Below are positions 1,056 through 10,421 of a stretch of 45,271 nucleotides of DNA, one piece after another (positions within the stretch are counted from its first letter, which is position 1; each line of letters opens with the position of its first letter). The stretch lies in assembly GCA_002791575.1 (NCBI GenBank), contig PFXI01000041.1, positions 1 to 45,271 on the forward strand, read 5' to 3'. This stretch comes from Zetaproteobacteria bacterium CG_4_9_14_3_um_filter_54_145. GTDB lineage: Bacteria; Pseudomonadota; Zetaproteobacteria; Mariprofundales; Mariprofundaceae. A program made the translations under genes and the position numbers. Below the pieces are notes generated by a model. It searched no databases. It was not told the origin of the DNA and was given only the letters and a program-made list of their open reading frames with translations.

Positions 1056-3310
1056 TCAAAAGTGCAGGTGGAAGGTGCGGTTGATTACGTCGAGCTGCTG
1101 CTCACGGGTAAGCTTGATGAAATTCACCGCATAACCCGATACGCGCAGTGTCAGCTGCGGATAGTTCTCCGGATGCTCCATCGCATCCAGCAGCGTATCC
1201 CTGTTCAGCACGTTGACATTGACATGAAAACCGCTGGCATTACAGAACACATCAACACAGTTGCTCAGGTTATTCACCTGATCTGACAGCGTGTGGCCCA
1301 GCGCACTCTCCGTACAGGTTGCCGTCCACGAAATGCCATCCAGTGCCGCCTTGTATGGCAGCTTGGCTACCGATGCGCCGGAAGCGATAAAACCCTTGGT
1401 ATCGCGTCCGTTCATCGCATTGGCACCCGGTGCAAACGGCTCACCGGCACGGCGTCCGTCCGGCGTATTGCCGGTCTTCATGCCGTAGACCACATTGGAG
1501 GTGATGGTCAGCACCGACTGGGTAGGTGTGCTGTTGCGGTAGGTTTTATGTTTGCGGATCTTCTCCATAAACGTTTCAACCAGCCATACAGCAATCTGAT
1601 CCACACGGTCGTCGTTGTTACCATAAGCCGGATATTCGCCTTCAATAGCAAAATCCTTGGCGATGCCATGCTCATCACGCAGTACACGCACTTTGGCGTA
1701 CTTGATCGCCGAGAGTGAGTCGGCTGCCACCGACAGGCCGGCAATGCCGCATGCCATCGTGCGCAGCACATCACGGTCATGCAGTGCCATTTCGATACGC
1801 TCGTAATGGTATTTGTCATGCATAAAGTGGATACCGTTGAGCGCTTTGATATAGGTCGTGGCCAGCCACTCCATCATCTGCTCGAACTTCGCCACCACCT
1901 CATCATAATCCAGATATTCACTGGTGATCGGCTCAAATCCATCGACAATCTTCACGCCGCTCTTTTCATCGACGCCGCCATTGATCGCATACAACATGGT
2001 TTTTGCCAGATTGCAGCGTGCACCGAAAAACTGCATCTGCTTGCCGATACGCATGGCCGATACACAGCAGGCAATGGCATAGTCATCGCCCCAATGCGCG
2101 CGCATCAGATCATCCGATTCATACTGGATAGCACTGGTTTCAATAGAGACCTTCGAACAGAAATCCTTGAACCCTCTGGGCATGGCATTGGACCACAGTA
2201 CCGTCAGATTCGGCTCGGGTGCAGGTCCCAGATTATACAGTGAGTGCAGGAAGCGGAAACTGCTGCGGGTAACCAGTGTACGTCCATCCTCGCCCATGCC
2301 GCCGATCGCTTCGGTGTGACCCAGGCAGGATCGCCCGAGAAGAGCAGATCGTATTCCGGCGTACGCAGAAAACGCACGATACGCAGCTTGATCACCAGAT
2401 CGTCGATCAACTCCTGTGCCGAGGACTCATCCAGCAGACCCGCATCGATATCGCGCTGGATATAGATATCCAGGAAGGTGGAGATGCGACCGATCGACAT
2501 GGCCGCGCCATTCTGCTCCTTGATTGCAGCCAGATAACCGAAATAGGTCCACTGCACGGCCTCTTGAGCGGTTGCCGCAGGGCGTCCGATATCAAAGCCG
2601 TAGCTGGCCGCCATCTGCTTGAGCTCATCCAGTGCCCTGATCTGCTCGGATAGCTCTTCACGGGTGCGCAGCACCTCTTCACTGAAGACCACGCTGTCCA
2701 GCTCGCTTTTTTCGCGTTTTTTATCGGTGATCAGGAAATCGACACCGTAGAGTGCCACACGGCGGTAATCGCCGACAATGCGGCCACGGCCATAGGCATC
2801 CGGCAAACCGGTGATAATACCGGAACGGCGGCAGGCCAGAATGTCCGGGCTGTAAATATCAAACACGCCCTGATTATGATCTTTGCGGTAGAGCTTAAAA
2901 GCCTGTTTCACGGCCGGATCAAGCTTGAAGCCGTATGCCTCAAGGCCTGCTTCGACCATACGCAGACCGCCGTTCGGCACGATGGCGCGCTTGAGTGGCG
3001 CATCGGTTTGCAAACCGACAATCAGTTCCATCGCTTTGTTGATATAGCCCGGTTTATGGGCGGTAATAGAAGAGCCGATATCACTGGATACATCCAGCAC
3101 GCCCTTGAGGCGTTCCTGCTCGATAAGTTTTGATATCTCCACCCACAGCGCACTGGTGCGCTCGGTGGCGGCAGCCAGAAAGCTGTCATCGCCTGTGTAG
3201 GGTGAGTAATTCTGCTGAATAAAATCGCGGAGATCTATGCGGCTTTGCCACGCACTGCCGTTAAAGTCGAGCCAGGGTTGCAAATCCGGATCTGTTTCTG
3301 GTGAGTTCAT
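1056..3310 (-). pseudogene. pflB: Pyruvate formate-lyase, interrupted by one frameshift
   Basis: It converts pyruvate and CoA to acetyl-CoA and formate anaerobically. The N-terminal part (3310 to about 2318) reads MNSPETDP... through [17 protein letters not shown]. The C-terminal part (about 2313 to 1056) resumes in another frame with [15 protein letters not shown] and runs to the normal end. Together they give about 750 aa, the usual PFL length (760). All key residues survive: the catalytic Cys-Cys pair in AIACCVSAM and the glycyl-radical loop RVSGYAV near the C-terminus. The break fits a 2-bp duplication (GTGT at 2314-2317 on the plus strand); removing one GT restores the family sequence W-V-T-E-x-I-G-G-M-G. 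Start chosen at the ATG at 3310 (AGGTG upstream), not the longer frame to 3373. Either a recent inactivation or a sequencing error. Confidence 0.9.
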
Positions 3311-3390
3311 GATAACACCTATACGTGCTGATGTGTTGCAAATTGCCACAAACCAAAAGTGTTGCAGCATCACTTCTGCAAGGGGAGAGA

Positions 3391-3427: not shown

Positions 3428-5296
3428 TTATTTCTTTTTGCGCACCGGCTTTCTGGAGCTGCCCTCTGTACGCTTGTGCGGTCCGGCATGGCCACGCTTG
3501 CTGTCCCTGTCGGATGCACCGGGACGGAACTGCTTGCGCTTGACCGGACGATCAAAACCCGCGCCACCCTGCTGCTCCAGCTCGGCATTGAGCTGCTGCC
3601 CACAGACATGAATCTGCCTGAGCTGCTTCAATATTGCAGCCGGCATCCCTTCCGGCAGATCAACGGTACTGTAGTTGTCGGAAATCTGGATATGACCGAT
3701 AAATTCAGACTCCAGACCCACTTCGTTGGCAATAGCGCCGACGATATTGCGCGCTTCGGCACCATGGCTGCTGCCTACTTCCAGGCGGTAACGATCCTTG
3801 CCACGCTCAGGTGCACCCGCATCGCGACTGCGTGCCGGCTTCTCACGTCTTGGCCGCTCATCAGCGCCGAAACTCTCGGCCCTCTCCACGCGCTCGCTGC
3901 GCGGACTGCGTGTACGTGGCTCGGCTGACGATTCAAAACGGGGTGAACGCTCTTCACGCTCACGCTGTGGACGTGCGGGTTGATTCTTGAGAATAAGATC
4001 CTTGCCGCCCTGTGCCATATAGGCCAGCGCCGCAGCAATCTCCTGAGCAGGCACATTATGTTCCCGTTCATACTGCTCAACAATACCGGCAAACATCTCA
4101 AGCCCTTCGGCCGCCAGCGTATCGGTGATGCGCTGCTTGAACTCGGCGATACGCAGGTTGTTGATATCCTCGGTCGTCGGCATCTCCAGCATCTCTACGC
4201 GCTGGTTCGTTGCTTTCTCTATCGAGAGTAACATACGCTTTTCGCGCGGTGCAACAAACAGAATCGCATCGCCCTTGCGGCCGGCACGACCCGTACGACC
4301 GATTCGATGTACATAGGATTCGGTATCATGCGGAATATCATAATTGATCACATGTGAAATGCGCTCCACATCCAGACCACGGGCGGCAACGTCGGTAGCA
4401 ACCACAATATCAATCTTGCCGCTCTTCAGACGATTGACGATCTGCTCACGCTGGGACTGCTTGATATCGCCGTTCAGGGCCGTGGCTGCATAACCGCGCG
4501 CTTCAAGACGTTCGGCCACCTCTTCCGTCGCCGTTTTGGTGCGCACGAAGATGATCATGCCGTCAAAGGTCTCGAACTCGAGAATGCGCGTCAGCGCATC
4601 GATCTTGTTACGACCGCTAACCATCCAGTAACGCTGGCGAATGGTTGGCGCTGTCGTGGTTTTATCCTTGATGGTGACCTGTTGCGGATCTTTCAGATAG
4701 GACTGGGCAATCTTGCGGATCACCGCCGGCATGGTCGCCGAGAACAGGGCAATCTGGCGCTGTTCAGGCAGCTGCTCGAGCACCCATTTTACGTCATCGA
4801 TAAAGCCCATACGCAGCATTTCATCGGCTTCGTCGAGAACCAGTGTTTTCAAACCGCTCAGATTCAGCGTTTTGCGGCGCAGGTGATCCATCACGCGGCC
4901 GGGTGTACCGACCACGACATGCGCACCTCTTTTCAGCTGGCGCAACTGGATATCGTAGGACTGGCCGCCGTAAATCGGCAACACATGGAATCCCTTGATA
5001 TGGTGGGCGTATTGCTGGAATGCTTCGGCCACCTGAATCGCCAGCTCACGCGTTGGAGCCAGTACCAGCACCTGCGGATCACGCTGATCGATATCGATAT
5101 TGCTCAGGATTGGCAGCGCAAAAGCTGCGGTCTTGCCTGTTCCTGTCTGTGCCTGCCCGAGTACATCGCGGCCGGCCAGCATCAGTGGAATAGTTGCCGC
5201 CTGAATTGGCGTGGCACTTTCATAACCCTGATCTTTAATTGATTTCAGAACCAGCTCGGATAAGCCCAGCTCATTAAACAGTACATCTGTCGTCAT
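3428..5296 (-). CDS. deaD: ATP-dependent DEAD-box RNA helicase, DeaD/CsdA type
   Basis: 622 aa, close to the 629 aa of E. coli DeaD. It unwinds structured RNA in ribosome assembly, mRNA turnover and cold adaptation. Helicase motifs appear in order: Q-motif (GYESATPIQ), motif I AQTGTGKTA near residue 50, PTRELA, VGTPGRV, DEAD near residue 155, SAT, VATDVAARGLDV and HRIGRTGR near residue 330. A charged linker rich in Arg, Glu and Ser (about 435-490) leads to a DbpA-type RNA-binding domain (YRLEVGSSHGAEARNIVGAI, then VDLPEGMP) and a basic tail ending RKPVRKKK. The start ATG at 5294-5296 has AGG six bases upstream. The leader contains competing hairpins (see 5303-5334), and a strong hairpin lies further upstream at 5347-5377. 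Confidence 0.95.
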   Translation of the reverse strand: MTTDVLFNELGLSELVLKSIKDQGYESATPIQAATIPLMLAGRDVLGQAQTGTGKTAAFALPILSNIDIDQRDPQVLVLAPTRELAIQVAEAFQQYAHHIKGFHVLPIYGGQSYDIQLRQLKRGAHVVVGTPGRVMDHLRRKTLNLSGLKTLVLDEADEMLRMGFIDDVKWVLEQLPEQRQIALFSATMPAVIRKIAQSYLKDPQQVTIKDKTTTAPTIRQRYWMVSGRNKIDALTRILEFETFDGMIIFVRTKTATEEVAERLEARGYAATALNGDIKQSQREQIVNRLKSGKIDIVVATDVAARGLDVERISHVINYDIPHDTESYVHRIGRTGRAGRKGDAILFVAPREKRMLLSIEKATNQRVEMLEMPTTEDINNLRIAEFKQRITDTLAAEGLEMFAGIVEQYEREHNVPAQEIAAALAYMAQGGKDLILKNQPARPQREREERSPRFESSAEPRTRSPRSERVERAESFGADERPRREKPARSRDAGAPERGKDRYRLEVGSSHGAEARNIVGAIANEVGLESEFIGHIQISDNYSTVDLPEGMPAAILKQLRQIHVCGQQLNAELEQQGGAGFDRPVKRKQFRPGASDRDSKRGHAGPHKRTEGSSRKPVRKKK

Positions 5297-5302
5297 TACA
5301 CA

Positions 5303-5334
5303 CCTGTTAAACAGGGTGTTTGATGAACCCTGTT
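5303..5334 (-). promoter_or_regulatory. Competing hairpins over the deaD ribosome-binding site
   Basis: On the minus strand three related segments lie in a row before the deaD ATG: A = AACAGGG (5334-5328), B = CCCTGTT (5316-5310) and C = AACAGG (5308-5303). Segment C contains the AGG of the Shine-Dalgarno site. B can pair with A (7 bp, 11-nt loop), leaving the site free, or with C (short stem), hiding it. This is the layout of a simple translational switch. The sequence shows the complementarity; the regulatory role is inference. Confidence 0.45.
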
Positions 5335-5346
5335 ACCTAAAGATAA

Positions 5347-5377
5347 GGGGCTACACACGCCATGCGCATGCAGCCCC
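5347..5377 (-). terminator. Strong hairpin between ppnN and deaD
   Basis: On the minus strand GGGGCTGCATGCG and CGTGTGTAGCCCC pair over 13 positions (with G-U wobbles) around a CATGG loop, followed by TTATCTTT. On the plus strand the wobble positions become A-C mismatches, so the structure belongs to minus-strand RNA. It fits a Rho-independent terminator for ppnN. Because deaD follows only 51 bp further on, it could also act as an attenuator in the deaD leader. Confidence 0.6.
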
Positions 5378-5422
5378 CCTCTGACGGCGCACTATATACC
5401 AAGTCGCATCATAAGGCACGGC

Positions 5423-6793
5423 TTATACGATTTTGTAACAGGAACGGTAACTCTCGGCCGTCATCTTCATGCGTCCCTGCGCCACAAATGCAGTCAGCAG
5501 GGCATCCACCGGCTGCATAATGCTGGCTTCTCCATGTATTTCAAAATCACCATATTGCTCAATCGCCCGTATGCCTTCATCTTTAACATTACCGGCAACC
5601 AGCGCCGAAAACACACGCCGCATATTAGCCGCCAGCTGCCAGGGGAGCTGATTCTTATGCAGCGCCAGATTGCGCACATTGGCATGGGTCGGCGCAAACG
5701 GCTGCTGAAACGCATGATCAATGGTCAGTGACCAGTTGAAATAATAGGCATCACCCACATGCTTGCGATGCTCTCTGACCTGCACAACGCCCTCGCGCAT
5801 GGCTTGTGCCACCAGCGCCGGATCATCGATAATGATCTGGTATTTCTGCTGTGCCTCAACACCCAGTGTTGCGCCTATAAACGCGTCAATCTGGGCAAAG
5901 TATGCTCTGGCCGACTCCGGCCCGGTAAACACCAGCGGAAACGGTATGTCGCTATTATCCGGATGCAGCAACAGACCCAGCAGGTAGAGGATCTCTTCGG
6001 CCGTCCCGACACCGCCGGCAAACACCACCACGCCGTGACCGGCACGCACAAATGCCTCCAGCCTCTTTTCGATATCGGGAAAAATCGTCAGGTTATTCAC
6101 GATCGGATTCGGTGACTCGGCAGCAATAATTCCGGGTTCGGTAATGCCGAGGTAGAGACCGTCGGTCACACGCTGCTTGGCATGGCCGATGGTTGCCCCC
6201 TTCATCGGCCCCTTCATCGCACCCGGCCCGCAACCGGTACATACATCCAGGCTACGCAGTCCCATCTGGTAACCGACCTCTTTACTGTAGTCATACTCAT
6301 TGCGTGAGATGGCATGACCACCCCAGCAGACCACCAGTCGGGGTTCGCGTATCAGATCAAGCACACGGGCGTTGCGCAGGATATAGAACACCGCATTGGT
6401 AATGCCTCTGGAGCTACCCAGATCGATATTCCTGTTGTTATTGATCTCATCATGGACGAAAACGATGTCCCGCAACACAGAGAATAGATGTTCGTGGATC
6501 CCCTTGATCATCTGCCCGTCGACAAATGCGCTGGCCGGCGCATTGATCAGTTCCAGTTTGATACCCCGCTCCACCTGCCGCACATGGATTTCAAAATCCT
6601 TGTAGCGCTCGAGCAGCTCACGCCCGTCATCGATATCGCCGTCACAATTAAGCACCGCCAGCGAGCAGCTCCTGAAGATATGATAGAGCCCGCCCGTACT
6701 ATTATTATTCAGCAGCTGGCCTACCTCCAGCTTGGAGAGCACCTCCAAACGACCTGATGGCTCTATGATCGTATCCATGACTGCATAGCGCAT
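5423..6793 (-). CDS. ppnN: Pyrimidine/purine nucleotide 5'-monophosphate nucleosidase (LOG family, YgdH type)
   Basis: 456 aa, matching the 454 aa of E. coli PpnN. The family cleaves the N-glycosidic bond of nucleoside monophosphates to free base and ribose 5-phosphate; the E. coli enzyme is activated by (p)ppGpp. Residues 10-130 form the PpnN-specific N-terminal domain (LEVLSKLEVGQLLN, then FRSCSLAVLN). The central Rossmann core carries VVCWGGHAIS, CTGCGPGAMKGPMKGA and the catalytic loop FAGGVGTAEEILYLLG. The C-terminal domain ends VAQGRMKMTAESYRSCYKI. The start at 6793 has AAGGGGT five bases upstream. The gene is preceded by a 452-bp gap and followed by a hairpin at 5347-5377. Confidence 0.93.
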   Translation of the reverse strand: MRYAVMDTIIEPSGRLEVLSKLEVGQLLNNNSTGGLYHIFRSCSLAVLNCDGDIDDGRELLERYKDFEIHVRQVERGIKLELINAPASAFVDGQMIKGIHEHLFSVLRDIVFVHDEINNNRNIDLGSSRGITNAVFYILRNARVLDLIREPRLVVCWGGHAISRNEYDYSKEVGYQMGLRSLDVCTGCGPGAMKGPMKGATIGHAKQRVTDGLYLGITEPGIIAAESPNPIVNNLTIFPDIEKRLEAFVRAGHGVVVFAGGVGTAEEILYLLGLLLHPDNSDIPFPLVFTGPESARAYFAQIDAFIGATLGVEAQQKYQIIIDDPALVAQAMREGVVQVREHRKHVGDAYYFNWSLTIDHAFQQPFAPTHANVRNLALHKNQLPWQLAANMRRVFSALVAGNVKDEGIRAIEQYGDFEIHGEASIMQPVDALLTAFVAQGRMKMTAESYRSCYKIV

Positions 6794-7862: not shown

Positions 7863-10421
7863 TTACGCTTTGCTCAGGGTTTCGCGTATCAACTGACTCA
7901 ATCTGGATACCGCAAACGGCTTGCTGATCACTTTTTCGCTAAAAACCTTGCCCCTTGAGCCGAGCGCGCTGAGCTTGTCATAGCCTGTGGCATATATGGC
8001 TTTTACATCCGGATTGATCTGACGCATCTGCCTTAGCGCATCCACACCACCCAATCTCGGCATAACAATATCCAGGATAACCAGATCAATCTCATGCTGT
8101 TGCTCCCTGTAACATTCAACCGCCACCAGACCGTCCTCCGCAACCAGCACCTGATAACCCAGCCCCTCCAGCACATCGCGGCCGGTATCCAGCACGGTTT
8201 CATTATCATCAACCAGCAGGATCGTTTCCCCGCAGCCCTGCATGATCTCATCCTCACTCTTCACCACGCTGTCTGGCTGACCGGACTCAATAAGGGGAAG
8301 GCAAAATCTCACGGTTGTACCCGTAGGTTCGGTTGTGGATGTTTCAATATCAATGACGCCGCCATGGGTTTTTATCGCCCCGTAAACCATGGCCAGACCC
8401 AGCCCTGTTCCTCGTCCCTGCTCCTTGGTGGTGAAAAAAGGCTCAAACACATGCTCCAGATGCTCTGCACTGATACCCGTACCGTTATCAATCACCGAAA
8501 TACAGGCATAGTCTCTCTTCTCCTGGCCTTCATGCTTTTTGAAAAAATTGTCATCGGCATGATAATGATCCAGGCTGATCGCAATCGAGGGGTTCGCCCT
8601 CTCCTGCACGGCATCATAGGCATTGTTGATCAGGTTCATCAACACCTGCTGTAGCTGGTTGATATCACCCTTGATCTGCATATCCGTGTCGTTGATGCTG
8701 TACTCCAGCTTCACATTCTCCGGCAGGGAGGCGTGTTGTAACTTGATCGTCTCCTTTAGAAATGAGGAAATGGTAACCGGCACCATCGCCACCACCCCTT
8801 TACGGGAGAAGGCCAGCAACTGCTGGATCATCGCGGCAGCGCCAAAGGAGAGCTTCTCGACACTATCGAGCCGCCTGATGACATCCGGCATATGACCCGC
8901 CGCTTTCTTGGCCAGATAGAGGTTGCCGGTAATGCCCGCCAGCGTGTTATTGAAATCATGCGCTATACCGCCAACCAGCGTGCCGATTGCTTCCATCTTC
9001 TGCGACTGGTGAAACTGCGCCTCGAGCAATTCAAACTGCTCCAGATTCTGCTGTATGCCGACATAATGGGTGGTCGCGCCGGCATCACTCCTGATCGGCG
9101 AAATGGTCAGCATGGCCGGATATAGGGTGCCATCCTTCTTTCTGTTGATCACCTTACCCTGCCATGTTCGGCCATCGGTAATGGTATGCCACATCTGCTC
9201 ATAGAACAGCCTGTTCTGGTTGCCGCTTTTCAGCAGATTTGCCTTCCGGCCCAGCGCTTCCTCTTCACTATAGCCGGTGATCTCCGTATAGGCCGGGTTA
9301 ATATGTACAATTTCACCTTCGGCATCGGTAATCACAATCGCCTCACCGGACTGCTCCATCGCCCGCGAGTAGCGCCGCACCTTCGCTTCGGCCTGCTTGC
9401 GCTCGCTGACATCGCGTACCAGGGCGATTGCAAACAGCTCCCCTTGCTGCTCAAGCCTGCCGATGCGCACCTCAACCGGAAAGGTGGAGCCATCCATCCT
9501 GCGCTGGGTGCCTTCAACCGTCACCGCCTCACCCCGAGCAATGCGGGCAAACAGTTGCAGGACATCCTCTGCCGAAAAATCCTCATCCACATCCGGAATC
9601 GAGCGGGCAAGCAGCGCCTCTCTGGTATAGCCAAGACTCTCGCATGCCGCCCTGTTGACATCGACAATTTTGCCGTTGCGATCAACCAGCAGAAAAGCAT
9701 CCGTGGCATTATCAACCAGTGCCCGGAACCGGCTTTCGCTCTCCTTTAATGCCATTTCCCGCTGCCGGATACTCTCCTGCATCTGGTTGATTCCTTCAGC
9801 CAGCTGACCGATCTCATCCCGACGGGAAACCGCCACCACCACCGGGTAGTCACCGGCAGCAATGGAGCGTGTTGCCTCAAGCATGCGCTGTAAACGCCTG
9901 ACAACCAGCCTGTTCAAAGAAGCAACGAGGATCACCACCATCAACAGCGCCAGCAGCGCCACATTCGCGGCCTTGCGCAGCAGCCGCTCGTTGAGCAGAG
10001 CCTGCATAAACTGTTTGGTCAGATAGACCTTCACCGAACCGATTTGCTCGCCCGCCCGCAAAATCGGACGCATTTGCACCAGATAGTCGCCACTGATGTG
10101 GTTGGTAGAGTCCACTACCGCCCACGATTGATTCCGCTGCTTGCCGACAAACAGTTTGCCGTCAGCCTCGACAAACATCGCATAGATGCGCTTGTCATCC
10201 ATCTCGCTGTCGATCACTCTTTCAGTCCACTCTTTATCGATCTCCCATAGGGGCAGGGCAAGGCTTTCGGAGAGGCGGTTAACCTTGATCGTTGTCAACT
10301 CCTCCAGCTCCTGCAACTCATTGCCCTGCGAGATACGGTATTCATTGACTTCCGATGCAATCAGACCGCCGCAGACAATGGCGATGGCAATCAAAATGAG
10401 GCTGGTTTTGATGCTGTTCAT
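7863..10421 (-). CDS. Membrane hybrid histidine kinase (two PAS domains, C-terminal receiver)
   Basis: 852 aa. Order: membrane segment at about 7-27, a periplasmic sensor of about 120 residues (with [18 protein letters not shown], typical of small double-membrane-anchored sensors), second membrane segment at about 152-172, HAMP at about 175-225, PAS1 at about 230-345, PAS2 at about 350-465, HisKA with the phospho-His in GGIAHDFNN near 488, and HATPase_c with N-box [11 protein letters not shown]1 DNGTGI, F-box FFTTK and G2 GTGLGLAMV. The receiver spans about 732-850, with acidic pocket VDDNE near 738 and phospho-acceptor Asp in VILDIVMP near 783. There is no output domain and no adjacent response regulator, so the phosphoryl group must leave via another protein. 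Its ATG overlaps the stop of the upstream solute-binding protein gene by 4 bp, indicating translational coupling with the likely ligand receptors. Confidence 0.92.

Follow-up and report, generated by a model that had tools for sequence, protein, structure and literature searches.

A conserved, probably regulatory deaD leader in Mariprofundus and a sister group, with two mutually exclusive folds predicted over its Shine-Dalgarno sequence

The gene deaD, for a cold-shock-type RNA helicase, in the window, the 45,271-base stretch of DNA from an iron-oxidizing marine zetaproteobacterium analyzed here, is preceded by a leader that is real and conserved and is probably regulatory, with two mutually exclusive folds competing over the Shine-Dalgarno sequence. 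We put the probability that this RNA of about 88 bases acts as a conserved two-state control of translation at about 0.5; the evidence comes from six genomes of one clade, and all fold energies are those of nearest-neighbor models. RNA-remodelling helicases need to be dosed, and the sensing of their own activity is largely an open question. The deaD leader offers a candidate for such sensing that is easy to test: it is short and natural, its two folds over the Shine-Dalgarno sequence of the gene are nearly balanced, and it has been conserved along with a promoter-like motif specific to deaD. The features of the locus are collected in Table 1.

Table 1. Features of the deaD leader and its neighborhood in the window
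Feature	Position	Strand	Basis
ppnN, upstream neighbor of deaD, outside the leader	5423-6793	minus	NCBIfam NF038390, over cut-off
Promoter-like motif CGTGCCTT-N16-TATAGT-GCG (GTGCCT, 17-base spacer, TATAGT)	5388-5420	minus	pattern search
5' leader hairpin, followed by UUAUCUUU (5346-5339)	5346-5379	minus	15 pairs predicted, G-U included
Segment 1, AACAGGGU, Shine-Dalgarno look-alike, competitor for segment 2	5334-5327	minus	core CAGGG invariant in 6/6
Segment 2, ACACCCUGUU, shared strand	5319-5310	minus	core CCCTG invariant in 6/6; energies of both folds
Segment 3, ACAGGUGUGU, carrying the Shine-Dalgarno sequence AGGUG (5305-5301)	5307-5298	minus	CAGGTG invariant in 6/6
deaD, DEAD-box RNA helicase of the DeaD/CsdA type, 622 aa	3428-5296	minus	ORF list, Pfam, NCBIfam

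Read on the minus strand, the three segments lie in the order given in the original prediction, AACAGGG (5334-5328), CCCTGTT (5316-5310) and AACAGG (5308-5303), followed by TGTGTA and the ATG start codon (5296-5294). The proposal that the middle segment can pair with either the first or the third, the latter carrying the Shine-Dalgarno sequence, is backed both by RNA folding and by conservation in six genomes. In the open fold (the 1:2 pairing), AACAGGGU pairs with ACCCUGUU (5317-5310) to give 8 base pairs around a 9-base loop, leaving AGGUG free, and in the closed fold (2:3), ACACCCUGU (5319-5311) pairs with ACAGG(U)GUGU to give 9 base pairs with U 5302 bulged and AGGUG buried. The closed form had been drawn as CCTGTT with AACAGG only; the hiding of the Shine-Dalgarno sequence stands, and the extent of the pairing had to be enlarged to ACACCCUGU with ACAGG(U)GUGU. 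This enlarged pairing accounts for the conservation of the bases after the Shine-Dalgarno sequence, where the GUGUGU following CAG is invariant in the four Mariprofundus leaders (type A) and matches the ACAC of segment 2. Two exclusive folds of similar energy, one of them masking the Shine-Dalgarno sequence, are found for the minimal region in four genomes, with a balance that differs in longer contexts.

Among 78 zetaproteobacterial genomes, a strict pattern found the arrangement in four, with one match each, and the looser pattern CAGGG-N3-16-CCCTG-N2-9-CAGGTG found it directly before deaD in six, with 23 further matches elsewhere. The six carriers form one DeaD clade in the tree, with values of 98/97 for the four type A members and 99/98 for these together with the sister group (G083 and G084), which belongs to another genus. 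The original prediction was staked on conservation of the segments in close relatives, and the cores of all three are kept in 6/6, as are the core pairs of both 1:2 and 2:3, while the linkers differ in length (11/8/5 and 5/7/4 bases). Over the last 45 bases of the leader, the identity of the window to G003, G005 and G002 is 93, 83 and 71%, whereas the fourfold sites in deaD reach 61, 38 and 48% and bases -200 to -131 reach 45, 62 and 48%; seven other leaders of the window with upstream gaps of 100-500 bases show 44-77% identity to G003, the start being unsure for two of them (w10 and w26). A covariance model of the leader (R1) matched 4 of the 78 genomes at E < 1e-18 and missed the two sister-group leaders, and Rfam release 15 gave no match at gathering scores on either strand of the window. 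A regulon extending beyond deaD was considered and rejected, the next four R1 matches (E 0.005-0.02) being taken as chance because three overlap coding sequence and the fourth, in L204, resembles a terminator ahead of the following ORF.

Compensatory changes, called for as a check on the pairing, were found for 1:2, at one pair beside the core (A-U in three, G-U in one and U-A in two leaders; paired in 6/6), and none were found for 2:3, whose core is invariant and therefore gives no covariation test. In the four-sequence set, the covariation of 1:2 was equaled by 135 of 500 column shuffles. That the sole compensatory change falls in 1:2 favors a reading in which the functional part is the 1:2 hairpin alone, stabilizing the message or keeping the Shine-Dalgarno sequence clear, with 2:3 a by-product of the likeness of segment 1; other zetaproteobacterial deaD leaders, such as those of genus g21, likewise have hairpins before the Shine-Dalgarno sequence and no clear three-segment logic. 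However, a 1:2 hairpin has no need of the invariant GUGUGU matching the ACAC of segment 2 in type A, and CAGGTG is kept in 6/6; we hold this reading to be possible but doubtful. The same segments could also be seen as DNA, the inverted repeat CAGGG...CCCTG being perfect and near the conserved promoter-like motif, and could be bound by a repressor, as an operator placed shortly after the promoter. This is improbable, as arm spacings of 11, 8 and 5 bases would rotate the half-sites on DNA and in 6/6 the third copy falls on the Shine-Dalgarno sequence. In the sister group only 5 core pairs of 2:3 hold contiguously, the closed state dominates in folding, and an extra upstream CCCUGA can capture segment 1. 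With this extra CCCUGA, L061 and L121 may have a four-segment switch upstream of deaD (P:Q and R:S closed, Q:R open).

How surprising the arrangement is by chance was gauged in two ways. In the first, exact triples of a 5-base word, its complement and a repeat of the word covering the Shine-Dalgarno sequence were counted: 2 of 429 control leaders have one, as do 272 of 20,000 shuffled versions of the window leader. Five-base words were used because an exact 6-base triple is not counted in the window, its loop there having a single base. In the second, a structure-based switch score, 1.8% of 381 control leaders attain 7 or more, which corresponds to seven segment 2 bases swapping partners; the score is 7 in three of the four Mariprofundus leaders and 4 in L004. 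The energy of the worse fold is ordinary, being equaled in 53, 43, 18 and 32% of the controls for L002, L003, L004 and L005, respectively. The arrangement is thus mildly improbable per gene, and because the window holds about 40 genes the evidence from a single leader is indecisive; it is the conservation of the arrangement that makes the case convincing.

The product of deaD shows the Pfam domains DEAD, Helicase_C, DeaD_dimer and DbpA, all four over their cut-offs, which is the domain set of the DeaD/CsdA type; its top NCBIfam match, NF008642, scores 670 bits and lies below the equivalog cut-off of 989 bits. On the minus strand deaD is downstream of ppnN, with a gap of 126 bases. In G002, ~2.9 kb including another gene separate the end of ppnN from deaD and the leader is still at deaD, so that it belongs to deaD and not to its neighbor. 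A stretch between ppnN and deaD in G002 (~12650-14200 of L192) matches, at 51%, an 852-aa kinase-like ORF of the window (7863-10421) that here sits upstream of ppnN. Elsewhere on the minus strand of the window, at 1056-3373, one gene is broken into two ORFs that overlap in different frames, whereas a single frame holds the matching sequence in G003 and in G002; the gene, which we take from its sequence to be pyruvate formate-lyase, carries a frameshift or an assembly error in the window.

The promoter-like motif is specific to the gene. The pattern CGTGCYTT-N16-TANNNT-GCG occurs exactly once per genome in the six genomes, always before deaD, with no occurrence of a reversed control pattern, and GTGC[CT]T-17-TAnnnT-GCG lies 124 to 83 bases before the start codon with the same 17-base spacing in 6/6. 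Its -35-like hexamer matches sigma-70 poorly, and a sigma-70 scan reported no site. From the position of the motif, transcription is expected to start near 5384-5385, giving the leader of ~88 bases. A start downstream of 5334 had been named as counting against a switch, and the conserved motif, upstream of that position, points to an earlier one.

The hairpin and tail described upstream of the segments proved real, with G-U pairs contributing to the stem, and in L003, L004 and L005 this hairpin shows one-sided changes and length differences. The suggested folding of 5296-5422 (127 bases) gave -53.8, compared with a mean of -40.1 (z -3.4), more stable than 200 of 200 dinucleotide shuffles; judged by eye, the excess stability comes mainly from the hairpin at 5379-5346. 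A GC-rich stem followed by UUAUCUUU could indicate an intrinsic terminator, either of ppnN or as an attenuator, in which case the rest of the leader would have no regulatory role. The U-run is interrupted, however, and a consensus scan of 5200-5520 found no terminator on the minus strand; the hairpin is preceded by the conserved promoter-like motif, and in G002 it stays with deaD although ppnN is not next to it there. We consider a terminator role unlikely, and a terminator of ppnN in particular is not favored given the G002 arrangement, the empty scan and the upstream motif. The hairpin also raises the idea of leader-peptide control, where a short ORF starting from it would place a ribosome before segment 1 and so select the fold. 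Inspection by eye places an AUG inside or beside the hairpin loop in 4/4 type A leaders, and in the window and L004 the frame stops 2 bases before segment 1, but it enters deaD in L003 and ends at the deaD start in L005, and the peptides share nothing obvious by eye, leaving such control very improbable.

The favored fold, as modelled, depends on the species and on the length folded. For the minimal region at 37 °C, the four Mariprofundus genomes give energy differences G12-G23 of -0.4, -0.7, -0.7 and -2.1 kcal/mol. With 30 coding bases added to the leader, the closed fold is favored in the window, L003 and L005 and the open fold in L004; L005 is closed in this longest context only. For the window leader, this length gives P(closed) of 0.96-0.99 and P(open) of 0.01-0.03 over 4-37 °C, and at 37 °C the open fold has a probability of 0.57 when the RNA is cut at the start codon versus 0.03 with the 30 further bases. 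Relative to their own shuffles, the Shine-Dalgarno accessibilities of the four type A leaders fall at percentiles 0.02, 0.13, 0.06 and 0.85, which is not unusual in every member. When growth of the chain is modelled at 25 °C, 1:2 keeps a probability of 0.99-1.0 up to a few bases short of the start codon, near which, in the window, it yields to 2:3. For the direct path from 1:2 to 2:3, the model gives a barrier of 11-14 kcal/mol between 25 and 37 °C, rising to 14-17 kcal/mol at 10 °C.

These temperature calculations bear on an RNA thermometer or cold switch, in which temperature alone would pick the fold, as the original prediction had allowed. Genes of the deaD/csdA type are linked to cold in other bacteria (PMC3485376), modelled refolding is slower in the cold, and on warming from 4 to 37 °C the open probability of the window leader, when cut at the start codon, climbs from 0.02 to 0.57. 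With 30 coding bases, however, the window leader remains closed throughout, and over the same temperature range the minimal-region G12-G23 moves from +0.6 to -0.4 in the window, the opposite trend to L004 (-2.0 to -0.7) and L005 (-5.3 to -2.1). A shift in the same direction in all members was not seen in the models, and a choice of fold by temperature did not hold up as a conserved property. We regard a thermometer as a poor explanation of this leader.

A leader controlled by refolding is favored because 1:2, as modelled, forms first and refolds slowly. Segment 1 would act as a decoy of the Shine-Dalgarno region that competes with segment 3 for the complementary segment 2. During transcription 1:2 would pair first, leaving the site open, and once segment 3 has been made the RNA could refold to 2:3 and bury the Shine-Dalgarno sequence, the fold thereby setting the translation of DeaD. 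More speculatively, DeaD, as an RNA-remodelling helicase, may accelerate the slow switching from one fold to the other; new messages would then be open when the helicase is scarce or slowed by cold and closed when it is plentiful, a negative feedback. On kinetic grounds we favor a helicase that would help the leader to reach the closed fold, the opposite sign to the earlier suggestion that the enzyme could melt the structure hiding its start site. This helicase-sensing reading is an attractive conjecture. Extended to a sensor of RNA-remodelling capacity, with an open fold that is made first and kinetically trapped, relaxation to the closed fold by DeaD, a speed of shut-off of the deaD message that reports free helicase, and a sister-group CCCUGA that makes a four-segment switch, it is a bold proposal that we rate as unlikely.

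Autoregulation of E. coli DeaD has been reported. Anti- and anti-anti-Shine-Dalgarno strands serve as translational switches in riboswitch expression platforms and ribosomal-protein leaders; the deaD leader resembles these in sharing one strand between a decoy and the Shine-Dalgarno sequence and differs in having no evident ligand-binding domain and no Rfam match. The cold-shock thermosensor leader of E. coli cspA works through alternative folds and responds to temperature, whereas the deaD leader as modelled has no consistent temperature switch. A cis-acting leader element of the cspA mRNA enhances ribosome binding (PMC9947658). Autoregulation of crhR with temperature is described in Synechocystis (PMC3485376), as are, for Caulobacter rhlE, a 186-nt leader and higher expression in the null strain (PMC5472812). 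The likeness is that the expression of a DEAD-box helicase gene depends on its own product; the difference is that the passages covered report no three-segment switch over the Shine-Dalgarno sequence, the deaD leader here being known from sequence and modelling. A three-segment deaD leader is not described in the titles and abstract openings searched, and no paper treating Mariprofundus together with DEAD-box proteins was found in the literature searched, most subscription journals lying outside the coverage of both searches.

Folding of deaD leaders across the class suggests, weakly, that the Shine-Dalgarno sequence tends to be hidden. Its mean unpaired probability is 0.25 in 50 zetaproteobacterial deaD leaders (of 58, duplicates, truncated leaders and those in which the script found no Shine-Dalgarno sequence being left out) and 0.24 in more distant, mostly gammaproteobacterial relatives (37 of their 65 leaders); among the controls, taken from G003, G008 and the window, 381 of 429 leaders give a mean of 0.41. 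The mean shuffle percentile of accessibility is 0.41 for the deaD leaders versus 0.54 for the controls, and p-values are not relied on because the rows are related. RNAalifold gave no convincing consensus fold for the leaders of genera g21 and g23 or of the other Mariprofundus genomes. Several unrelated zetaproteobacterial deaD leaders are structured near the Shine-Dalgarno sequence and could be a natural experiment in reinvented control. In g21 (L036, L124-L131, L133 and L134), a hairpin precedes the Shine-Dalgarno sequence and its arms covary by eye (GGGC/GCCC, GGGCGU/ACGUCC and UGGAUGU/ACAUCCA); these leaders are apparently analogous to, and not homologous with, that of the window. Also by eye, a short hairpin of the GAC..GUC type abuts AGGAAA in g23 (L135 and L138-L142), where in most of the leaders an upstream UUUCC could pair with the Shine-Dalgarno sequence. 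Other Mariprofundus and related genomes (L006-L015, L017-L020, L023, L038, L118 and L119) have an unrelated, strongly conserved deaD leader, ...TTTCTTAATG...CAGGCA..CTTCGC..CCGGTAATTTCCGCAGG, which by eye presumably resembles the universal 530-loop sequence of 16S rRNA.
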